NCBI RefSeq assembly: GCF_900312745.1
Contig: NZ_OMPD01000014.1
Span: 992,001-1,056,000 of the forward strand
Reading direction: 5' to 3'
DNA: 64,000 nt
From: Aquimarina sp. AU58
GTDB taxonomy: Bacteria; Bacteroidota; Bacteroidia; Flavobacteriales; Flavobacteriaceae
Part shown: piece by piece, positions 47,077 to 49,946 of the stretch
Position numbering within the stretch: the first letter of the stretch is position 1
Layout: every line of letters starts with the position of its first letter
Position numbers and translations under genes: made by a program
The notes under the pieces: generated by a model
The model's input: the letters and a program-made list of their open reading frames with translations, nothing else
Database searches by the model: none
Told to the model about the DNA's origin: nothing

Positions 47077-47502
47077 ATGAAAATACAACTAAAAAGAATA
47101 GACAACGATTATCATTTCGAATTAAAAAATGAAAGAGGACATGTAACTTATATAGATAGTACGGCCAAAGTTGGAGGACATGACCAGGCACCAAGTCCAA
47201 TGGAATACGTATTGATGGGAGTAGCAGGGTGTAGTGCTATTGATATAATTTCTATTCTGAAGAAACAACGACAAGAAATTACAGACTATCGAGCAGAAGT
47301 AAATGGCGCTCGCGAAGAAATTGATGGAGCAAAACCATTTAAAAAAATTACAGTAACCGTTTATCTTGAAGGGGATATTACTCCAGAAAAAGCACAGAGA
47401 GCGGCAGAATTGTCATTTGAGAAATATTGTTCGGTATCCAAAACATTAGAACCCACAGCTACAATAGAGTACAAGGTGGTGGTTAATAATAAAGAAGTAT
47501 GA
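47077..47502 (+). CDS. OsmC-family protein
   Basis: A 141-residue OsmC/YhfA-like protein: GGHDQAPSPMEYVLMGVAGC, SAIDIISILKKQRQEITDYR and a final SVSKTLEPTATIEYK with the second conserved Cys in KYCSVSKT. The two cysteines make a thiol peroxidase activity possible, though the YhfA branch is not characterised. It overlaps metZ by four bases (ATGA), so it is translationally coupled to a sulfur gene. Confidence 0.9.
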   Translation: MKIQLKRIDNDYHFELKNERGHVTYIDSTAKVGGHDQAPSPMEYVLMGVAGCSAIDIISILKKQRQEITDYRAEVNGAREEIDGAKPFKKITVTVYLEGDITPEKAQRAAELSFEKYCSVSKTLEPTATIEYKVVVNNKEV

Positions 47503-48677
47503 GCCTTAAAAGTTTAAATTTTGAAACACAAGCGGTAAGAACGCAAACTGATAAAACACAGTTTTTAGAGCATTCTACACCAATGTATTTAACCTCGGGC
47601 TTTGTTTTTGAAGATGCAGAAGAGATGAGAGCTGCTTTTGCAGAAGAGAAAGAACGAAATCTATATAGCCGTTTTAGTAATCCTAATACAACAGAATTTG
47701 TAGATAAGATTTGCAAATTAGAAGGAGCAGAAGACGGGTATGCATTTGCAACGGGTATGGCAGCAGTGTTTTCTACATTTGCTGCGTTATTAGATGCTGG
47801 TGATCATATTGTTTCGGCTCGATCTGTATTTGGTTCTACTCATACTTTATTTACTAAATATTTACCAAAGTGGAATATCGAAACCAGTTATTTTAGAGTA
47901 GATGAGGTGGATAAAGTAGAAAGTTTGATCCAACCCAATACAAAAATTATATATGCCGAATCTCCAACAAATCCGGGAGTAGATGTTTTAGATTTAGAAT
48001 TGTTGGGTGCGATCGCAAAAAAACACAACCTGCTTTTGGTTATTGATAATTGTTTTGCGACTCCATATTTGCAAAACCCGATTAAGTTTGGTGCAGATTT
48101 GGTAATTCATTCTGCAACTAAGCTAATTGATGGCCAGGGAAGGGTTCTGGGAGGAGTGACTGTTGGTAAAAAAGAACTGATAAGAGAAATTTACCTCTTT
48201 TCGCGTAATACCGGACCATCACTATCACCTTTTAATGCTTGGGTATTGTCTAAAAGTTTAGAAACCTTGGCGGTTCGGGTGGATCGTCACTGTGAAAATG
48301 CACTAAAATTAGCAGAGTTTTTAGAATCACATCCTAAAATAAACTGGGTGAAATACCCATTCCTAAAATCTCACCCACAATATGAAGTTGCCAAAAAGCA
48401 AATGAAAATGGGAGGTAATGTTGTTGCTTTTGAAGTAAAAGGAGGTGTACAAGGAGGTAAAACTTTTTTTAATAGTGTACAAATGTGTTCTCTGTCTGCC
48501 AATCTTGGTGATACCAGAACCATAATTACACATCCCGCTTCAACAACACATAGTAAACTAGCCGATGAAGACAAGCTTGTTGTAGGGATTACAGATGGAA
48601 TGGTGCGTTGTTCTGTAGGATTAGAGCATATCGATGATGTTATATCGGATATAGAACAAGCATTAGAAAAAATATAG
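47499..48677 (+). CDS. metZ: O-succinylhomoserine sulfhydrylase-type trans-sulfuration enzyme
   Basis: A 392-residue PLP enzyme of the Cys/Met metabolism family. It shows FETQAVRTQTDKTQFLEHST, PMYLTSGFVFEDAEEMRAAF, SRFSNPNTTEF, the PLP lysine in VIHSATKLIDGQGRVLGGVT and SLSANLGDTRTIITHPASTT. Length and motifs fit MetZ (O-succinylhomoserine sulfhydrylase) better than the longer MetY encoded at 42171. With metX in the same stretch the organism may use either acyl-homoserine. Start overlaps the OsmC gene by 4 bases; a terminator follows. Confidence 0.9.
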   Translation: MSLKSLNFETQAVRTQTDKTQFLEHSTPMYLTSGFVFEDAEEMRAAFAEEKERNLYSRFSNPNTTEFVDKICKLEGAEDGYAFATGMAAVFSTFAALLDAGDHIVSARSVFGSTHTLFTKYLPKWNIETSYFRVDEVDKVESLIQPNTKIIYAESPTNPGVDVLDLELLGAIAKKHNLLLVIDNCFATPYLQNPIKFGADLVIHSATKLIDGQGRVLGGVTVGKKELIREIYLFSRNTGPSLSPFNAWVLSKSLETLAVRVDRHCENALKLAEFLESHPKINWVKYPFLKSHPQYEVAKKQMKMGGNVVAFEVKGGVQGGKTFFNSVQMCSLSANLGDTRTIITHPASTTHSKLADEDKLVVGITDGMVRCSVGLEHIDDVISDIEQALEKI

Positions 48678-48714
48678 AAGCTATAAAACTTCTTGTAGTA
48701 TTGAAATAAAATGA

Positions 48715-48752
48715 AAAATGCTCTGAAAATTAATTTTTCAGAGCATTTTTTT
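48715..48752. terminator. Bidirectional terminator after metZ
   Basis: AAAATGCTCTGAAAA and TTTTCAGAGCATTTT form a 15-bp stem with loop TTAATT and A/T runs on both sides. It serves metZ on the plus strand and the Cys-rich peptide genes on the minus strand. Confidence 0.9.
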
Positions 48753-48773: not shown

Positions 48774-48965
48774 TTATATAAAATGACAACGCCCGTTTGA
48801 CATGCATGTACCTGCATCACAAAATAAACGTACTCCACCTCTCCAGGTGCAACATTGATATCCGTTTTGATAACAACCAAAACCTCTTGCTCCCGAACCA
48901 GAGATTGAACTTTGTTCGGTTTTACTTAATAAGGAAACTCCTTTTAAATTTAAAATTTTTTTCAT
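48774..48965 (-). CDS. Cys-rich precursor peptide with double-glycine-type leader (2 of 2)
   Basis: A 63-residue peptide from the ATG at 48965; the frame's earlier ATG at 49001 lies inside the upstream peptide gene. The N-terminus MKKILNLKGVSLLSKTEQSS and ISGS is a Bacteroidota leader of the bacteriocin-like/natural-product precursor type (LSKxxQxxIxGG/GS). The remaining ~40 residues hold six Cys in the order C-x6-CC-x9-C-x4-C-x5-C (GCYQNGYQCC, FCDAGTCMSNGRC). It is a close paralogue of the peptide at 48979, 13 bases upstream. No export or modification gene is nearby. Confidence 0.75.
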   Translation of the reverse strand: MKKILNLKGVSLLSKTEQSSISGSGARGFGCYQNGYQCCTWRGGVRLFCDAGTCMSNGRCHFI

Positions 48966-48978
48966 AAAATAATTTGTT

Positions 48979-49164
48979 TTAAGAATACACACAATATCCA
49001 TTAGGTAGGCATTGTCCTACATCACAGAAATTTCCGTTACCGGTTTCTCTACAGCACTGATTTCCGTTTTGAAAACAAGGAGTCCCGCTGCGCGAACCCA
49101 AAATTTGACTTTGATCATTTTTACTTAATAAGGTAACTCCTCTTAAGTTTAAAACTTTTTTCAT
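48979..49164 (-). CDS. Cys-rich precursor peptide with double-glycine-type leader (1 of 2)
   Basis: A 61-residue peptide. Leader MKKVLNLRGVTLLSKNDQSQ, then ILGS; core region with six Cys as C-x6-CC-x8-C-x4-C-x5-C (PCFQNGNQCC, FCDVGQCLPNGYC). Leader and Cys pattern match the downstream peptide, and both start codons are preceded by the same sequence (ATTCTTAAAACAAATTA on the minus strand), pointing to a tandem duplication. A -7-like element is at 49253. Probably exported after leader cleavage; antimicrobial or signalling roles are inference. Confidence 0.78.
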   Translation of the reverse strand: MKKVLNLRGVTLLSKNDQSQILGSRSGTPCFQNGNQCCRETGNGNFCDVGQCLPNGYCVYS

Positions 49165-49252
49165 AATGTAATTTGTTTTAAGAATGAATAGAATTGCACC
49201 TTTAAATCGGGGTATTATTGGTTAAATGAACAATTCTATAGATTTAGTTTCT

Positions 49253-49260: not shown

Positions 49261-49346
49261 AAATTTGAATATAGGATATAGACCCCCGTAAACAGGGGAA
49301 TATGTATTTTTGATTATAAAAACAGGTTTTAGGAAAATGAGCAAAT

Positions 49347-49378
49347 AAAAAAACTGAGGAATTCCTCAGTTTTTTTAT
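49347..49378. terminator. Terminator after the lipocalin-like lipoprotein gene
   Basis: AAAAACTGAGGAATTCCTCAGTTTTT is a perfect palindrome with flanking A and T runs, 26 bases beyond the stop of the minus-strand gene at 49404. Confidence 0.88.
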
Positions 49379-49403
49379 TCAAAGAATTTAGAAGCTTATA
49401 GCC

Positions 49404-49946
49404 TTATTTTTTTGTCAGAGTAAAAATTTGACTTCCGGTAATTTCAAAAGTAATTCCTTGTTGTTCTACCGTTTCTTTGATGTCTTTTTTTATACTCATG
49501 GTTTGTGCTGTTAATGCAATAATATCAAAAGACGCGTCTTTTTCGGCAACAGTAGTAATTAATTTGGTTCCATCTATTTTCCACTCCCCAGCTCCAATAA
49601 AATCTGGAATTGATTCTTCATAATCAATAGATTGTGTAGGGATAGTTATTTTTGCTACTAATGTAAACCCTCCAGAGCTAATAAAAGTATTGGGTTTATC
49701 GGCATCAGAAACTTCTGTAAAAGTTGCTTCTGCAGTATAATCTTTACCCGATATAGAATAACTACCACTCACAGGTATGTTTTCAATAGTAGCAGTAACT
49801 TTTCCATTTTCAGATTTGACATCCGAAAGACTCCACTCACCAGGGATTAAGGATTGATCAATTTCAATTGGAGAATCATCATCGTTGTTACAAGAAACAA
49901 ATAGTAAGGTACTTGCTAAACATAAAAGCATTGCAAATCTTTTCAT
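49404..49946 (-). CDS. Lipocalin-like lipoprotein, hypothetical
   Basis: A 180-residue lipoprotein (LLFVSCNNDDDS, Cys19 followed by acidic residues as in Bacteroidota surface-exposed lipoproteins). Residues 30-178 are beta-rich with the opening LIPGEWSLSDVKSENGK, and ISGSYSISGKDYTAEATFTE, GEWKIDGTKLITT, ITGSQIFTLTKK, which resemble the lipocalin-like families common in this phylum. No substrate is evident. Confidence 0.75.
   Translation of the reverse strand: MKRFAMLLCLASTLLFVSCNNDDDSPIEIDQSLIPGEWSLSDVKSENGKVTATIENIPVSGSYSISGKDYTAEATFTEVSDADKPNTFISSGGFTLVAKITIPTQSIDYEESIPDFIGAGEWKIDGTKLITTVAEKDASFDIIALTAQTMSIKKDIKETVEQQGITFEITGSQIFTLTKK

Follow-up and report, generated by a model that had tools for sequence, protein, structure and literature searches.

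Two small genes of Aquimarina sp. AU58, each encoding a six-cysteine peptide behind an export-type leader, lie in a 64,000-nt stretch of DNA (hereafter the window) in which we found neither a C39 peptidase domain nor a VKOR domain. How would such peptides be exported, cleaved and folded from this position? The answer that we consider likely is that they are dispersed three-disulfide precursors, which would be exported and cleaved by a cluster-type C39 exporter and oxidised by a fusion enzyme, both acting in trans.

The two ORFs, of 61 and 63 aa, are present where originally predicted, on the minus strand, arranged head to tail (peptide 1, then peptide 2), with leaders of the form MKKxLNLxGVxLLSKxxQSxIxGS and the predicted cysteine spacings. 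The features of the locus are:

48979..49164, minus strand: peptide 1 gene, six-cysteine precursor, 61 aa; orthologs in genomes G001, G003, G026, G029, G056 and a MAG (L153)
49093..49164, minus strand: peptide 1 leader, 24 aa, ending in Gly-Ser, putative cleavage site; 28.1 bits on the leader profile
48982..49092, minus strand: peptide 1 core, 37 aa, C-x6-CC-x8-C-x4-C-x5-C
48774..48965, minus strand: peptide 2 gene, six-cysteine precursor, 63 aa
48894..48965, minus strand: peptide 2 leader, 24 aa, ending in Gly-Ser, putative cleavage site; 32.4 bits on the leader profile
48777..48893, minus strand: peptide 2 core, 39 aa, C-x6-CC-x9-C-x4-C-x5-C
48894..49194, minus strand: span with both copies of a 102-nt direct repeat (48894-48995 and 49093-49194)
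49342..49381, minus strand: terminator-like hairpin 5' of the pair, 18-pair stem and T run, separating the pair from a lipoprotein-like gene (49404-49946)
48714..48750, no strand assigned: palindromic terminator-like hairpin 3' of the pair, 16 pairs, separating the pair from a convergent gene (47499-48677)

For peptide 2, the mechanical ORF begins at 49001 (75 aa), 12 codons before the start at 48965 that the family shares. The peptides are close paralogs (56% identical). The repeat covers the leader and upstream sequence of both genes at 82% identity, so the upstream sequences, first described as identical, are only nearly so. The surroundings are sulfur-metabolism genes (named by eye), within which the pair looks like a separate transcription unit because terminator-like hairpins stand on both sides; the downstream hairpin was listed for the minus strand in the terminator scan, and two shorter terminator-like matches within peptide 1 were disregarded. 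The pair had no NCBIfam match.

Both ORFs are real genes. They are more than chance occurrences, since every one of the 18 ortholog comparisons made over the full length, 15 for peptide 1 (six genomes) and 3 for peptide 2 (three genomes), gave a dN lower than dS; against A. macrocephali, for example, dN was 0.075 and dS 0.574. A few leader-only comparisons, with 0 or 1 synonymous change, gave dN above or close to dS. The same neighbourhood occurs with both peptides in A. atlantica, A. megaterium and a MAG, and with peptide 1 alone in A. macrocephali; peptide 2 was not seen at the fetched syntenic loci of A. macrocephali and G026, which show only peptide 1. No machinery genes were seen adjoining the pair in the five loci of its synteny group.

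The pair belongs to a family with 11 six-cysteine paralogs at six loci in its own genome: the pair itself, four single genes and five copies in a tandem array. A profile built from 26 members matched 42 of 52 Aquimarina genomes, some at leader level only. Every one of the 95 database relatives found has exactly six cysteines beyond residue 20; those carrying an organism name come from Aquimarina save three from Tenacibaculum and one from Spongiimicrobium, and judged by these sequences the family is mainly one of Aquimarina. In an alignment of 64 rows (62 of these relatives plus the pair), cores open with CC-xn-C in 52 rows and with C-xn-CC in 12, including the pair; the later C-x4-C spacing is constant and Gly23 is invariant (64/64). 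One cysteine takes either of two positions and the total stays at six, a shift that would be expected of disulfide-bonded cysteines. An AlphaFold model of the core has a small beta fold (pLDDT about 83, pTM 0.41), and its comparison with solved structures gave no useful match. Across 14 synteny groups of family members, no partner gene recurred in more than two, save a secreted endonuclease in four. This endonuclease I, which carries fn3 domains as well as a secretion tail, lies within 5 kb of six-cysteine peptide loci in the four groups (L035:7076-9676 and 36 other loci).

To place the leaders, we built a profile from 48 leaders of cysteine-containing leader peptides at 18 loci, all from other genera. 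On this profile peptide 1 scored 28.1 bits and peptide 2 32.4 bits, and each of the genome's 11 family members reached 27 bits or more. Sixteen other GG peptides, located close to three of the genome's four exporters, did not exceed 17.2 bits, and a background set of 80 ORFs did not exceed 3.8 bits. The leaders have the conserved hydrophobic positions and the GG/GA/GS end before the core that characterize C39 exporter substrates, the pair ending in Gly-Ser, not Gly-Gly. By sequence, they match the leader class of compact clusters in other Flavobacteriaceae.

The original prediction had placed the leaders in a class exported by C39 ABC transporters, with the exporter encoded at a distance, and had proposed searching the genome for one. 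Four C39 exporters were found, with genes at G000:C14:289-293 kb and G000:C2:1524-1528 kb among them; all are outside the window and, judged by their listed positions, at least 230 kb away from every family member. Two of the four (L043 and L044) are of the cluster type, being 65–92% identical to 15 of 16 compared exporters, including those of the 11 compact clusters described below, and 46–47% identical to the 16th (in L046); the other two are 28–34% identical to all compared. Together with the leader match, these candidates lend inferential support to the predicted route of export. The Cys-Gly block is kept in the own exporters aligned (L041, L042 and L043), and the C39 domain is common to the own-genome exporters and PCAT transporters (PCAT1, LahT150). 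The L043 locus has an adaptor, and no cysteine-rich leader peptide was found there in 19 kb; the HlyD assignment was checked by Pfam for own-genome adaptors and read by eye for those of other genera. The system that had been called incomplete does lack C39 and VKOR domains in the window, but it is probably a dispersed one, with its machinery elsewhere in the genome.

The candidate oxidising enzyme joins a degenerate C39-like peptidase domain, a VKOR domain and a DsbA/ScsC-like thioredoxin domain, and has existing database entries under the name ‘vitamin K epoxide reductase family protein’. Its VKOR domain matched PF07884 above cut-off, and the loop cysteine pair and CxxC typical of the VKOR family (C193, C201, C268 and C271) are invariant in 46 of 46 sequences; the thioredoxin CxxC is also kept. 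The N-terminal domain retains the C39 fold and has lost the catalytic cysteine: the catalytic block of active C39 peptidases is absent in 14 of 14 aligned fusion rows, and the first 130 residues are cysteine-free in 71 of 79 full-length relatives, with one cysteine in the other 8. Synechococcus-type VKOR–thioredoxin fusions resemble it in the VKOR core and its attached thioredoxin, with the cysteines of both parts (two VKOR pairs and the thioredoxin CxxC) kept, whereas the Aquimarina type additionally carries the C39-like domain at its N terminus and one more hydrophobic helix ahead of VKOR. From the number of helices, both soluble domains of the fusion are predicted to be periplasmic. The genome's own triple fusion lies 282 kb from the pair (G000:C2:757556-759142), surrounded by four six-cysteine and two four-cysteine leader peptides with spacings other than the pair's. 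All 11 family members of the genome lie away from this fusion and from the four exporters.

Across the genus, VKOR matches were found in 44 of 52 Aquimarina genomes at 75 places, which include proteins other than triple fusions. We scanned 45 of these places, 40 fetched as VKOR places and 5 fetched earlier for C39 hits, among them one in G015 taken for its nearness to a peptide match; L048 and L065 were excluded for want of a scoring fusion-type protein, leaving 43 loci. Leader peptides with at least four core cysteines lay within 2 kb of the fusion at 29 of the 43 loci, amounting to 78 peptides (77 on the fusion strand) compared with 1 in the other 364 kb. None was detected at the remaining 14, with a regular expression that misses some (at L100, a leader peptide that it missed was found by profile search). 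A 568-aa C39-like/VKOR/thioredoxin protein of G015 is separated by 113 nt from a family member that scored 64.8 bits. The presence of a disulfide-forming fusion enzyme near such peptides supports, by inference, the three disulfides that had been proposed. Two more leader peptides adjoin the G015 fusion (L045:7005-7505) with other six-cysteine spacings, and one enzyme may therefore serve several cysteine frameworks.

Outside Aquimarina, we fetched 18 loci, 17 for peptide–VKOR nearness and one for a high score. At 11 of these, the fusion, cysteine-containing leader peptides and a C39 exporter stand in one run, with an HlyD-like protein (read by eye) beside the exporter. The family-level scan covered 299 Flavobacteriaceae genomes, scoring at most 21 peptide candidates per genome, and in many of the peptide hits the match lies more in the leader than in the core. 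Positives span 23 genera (tally), and 24 genomes have both a peptide hit and VKOR. VKOR was present in 24 of 27 peptide-positive genomes versus 21 of 272 others (Fisher P = 5e-20, not corrected for phylogeny), and in 22 of 25 versus 21 of 272 when Aquimarina was left out; the three VKOR-free positives are G102, G143 and G336. C39 alone also co-occurs with the peptides (25 of 27 versus 69 of 272), and within the 94 C39-positive genomes VKOR was found in 24 of 25 peptide-positive genomes versus 18 of 69 (P = 5e-10). With the pair's own genome left out, 18 of 23 double-positive genomes have a peptide hit within 6 kb of VKOR, as do 20 of 60 VKOR places. Among the 52 Aquimarina genomes, 42 have both, 2 have VKOR only (G002 and G062, without a match to the six-cysteine profile), none has the peptide only and 8 have neither. 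Because the six placeable double negatives form one clade, co-occurrence at genus level was counted as one event, and the absence may reflect a single loss.

Under the favoured explanation, each precursor would be translated from its orphan gene, and a cluster-type C39 ABC exporter encoded elsewhere would recognise the 24-aa leader, cut after Gly-Ser and move the 37–39-aa core out of the cell. The membrane fusion enzyme, with its C39-like, VKOR and DsbA/ScsC-like thioredoxin domains and likewise encoded elsewhere, would then insert the disulfides, passing electrons from thioredoxin to VKOR to quinone, a route that is established VKOR chemistry. The pair would be a dispersed, amplified outpost of an export system that is often compact in other Flavobacteriaceae. 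A tentative extension, which we regard as possible though short of probable, is that the dead C39 peptidase now acts as a docking domain, bringing leader-bearing or freshly exported cysteine-rich peptides to VKOR and thioredoxin; disulfide bonding would become a dedicated, recognition-guided step, and Aquimarina would have spread and amplified the precursors, keeping the leader alone as an address. If the favoured explanation is true, a conserved Flavobacteriaceae peptide system built on this three-domain oxidative enzyme would be added to the small number of secreted disulfide peptides that have been worked out in Bacteroidota, the leader alone could find unlinked precursor genes, and the role of the catalytically dead C39 domain would become testable. 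Cluster-based mining would miss such orphans, as none of the 11 own family members adjoins machinery. Neither the cluster and its peptides nor the dead C39 domain was the subject of any paper found in our literature searches; one survey notes Aquimarina-specific RiPP-like clusters (PMC10734526).

The best-studied comparable system is that of the bacteroidetocins, antibacterial peptides proposed as class IIf bacteriocins of Bacteroidetes (PMC6671954). The passages of that paper defining them give leaders of 15–16 aa and at least two cysteines, and a region with a C39 ABC exporter, a TM protein and mostly a thiol oxidoreductase, deletion of which attenuates toxin activity (PMC6671954). Common to both systems as described there are a GG-type leader, a cysteine-containing core of ~40 aa, a C39-type exporter and a thiol oxidoreductase (PMC6671954). 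For bacteroidetocins A and B, the leader is 15 aa long, the cysteines number four and the four-gene region includes a 5-TM protein (PMC6671954), whereas the present system has 24 aa to the Gly-Ser, six cysteines (within the wording of at least two, unlike the four of A and B), the C39-like–VKOR–thioredoxin fusion, an HlyD-like adaptor and scattered precursors. The described gene neighbourhood is likewise absent from the window, with no C39 or VKOR there; in other genera, genes of the leader class do stand together with an exporter and an oxidoreductase. On these described features, and short of claiming membership, the best reading is that the pair would work much like the bacteroidetocins. 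NCBIfam NF047798 (leader_Chryseo, bacteriocin-like) gave a weak leader-end match in three related peptides, with E values of 0.07 to 0.19 and scores below the 23.5-bit cut-off.

By this analogy, competition with related bacteria is the most likely biological role, and antimicrobial activity of the predicted cores is plausible. The same maturation route could, however, yield signals or surface components, with the paralogs forming a peptide repertoire. Such products would fit the lack of any immunity-like gene recurring beside family members in the 14 synteny groups, the 11 paralogs in one genome and the greater sequence variation in cores than in leaders; bacteroidetocins, though, are antibacterial and their region, in the published description, also has no obvious immunity gene (PMC6671954). 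We consider these roles somewhat unlikely.

Oxidation by air, with the VKOR fusion serving only the peptides that adjoin it, is a clearly less likely account of folding. It would suit the 282 kb between pair and fusion and the two genomes with VKOR and no six-cysteine profile match, but it leaves unexplained why VKOR predicts the peptide class even within C39-positive genomes, and why all 11 own members have kept the cluster leader far from exporters and fusion.

The original prediction also proposed a two-peptide product, and the head-to-tail order within what looks like a single transcription unit, which A. atlantica, A. megaterium and the MAG also have, would suit an obligate two-component bacteriocin. 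That interpretation is not supported and is now very unlikely: class IIb two-peptide bacteriocins should always be paired, whereas the pair is only 2 of 11 own paralogs that include singles and an array of five, peptide 1 occurs without peptide 2 at the syntenic loci of two genomes (A. macrocephali and G026), and the two are close paralogs. Least probable of all is that the genes are relics of duplicated precursors, no longer exported or used, as their scatter away from machinery and the loss from view of peptide 2 at two loci might suggest, given dN below dS throughout, six cysteines in 95 of 95 relatives and conserved synteny.

Several other leader peptides were observed near the own-genome machinery. 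Beside the own fusion, L063:10617-12269 (G000:C2:759617-761269) holds four tandem leader peptides with the pattern C..C..CC..C..C, which we take to resemble knottin spacing. Four near-identical, cysteine-free leader peptides of 52 aa also adjoin the disulfide enzyme (L063:7272-8072), with none to four copies in the closest fetched relatives. In the exporter region at L042:2021-6388 (G000:C12), several cysteine-poor leader peptides accompany a VKOR protein that gave no C39 match; this is perhaps a second, different peptide system. The region of the third exporter (L041:7353-14200, G000:C2) encodes several kinds of leader peptide, some with hydrophobic, Gly-rich cores like those of class II bacteriocins, and a protein that by eye resembles a lanthionine cyclase.
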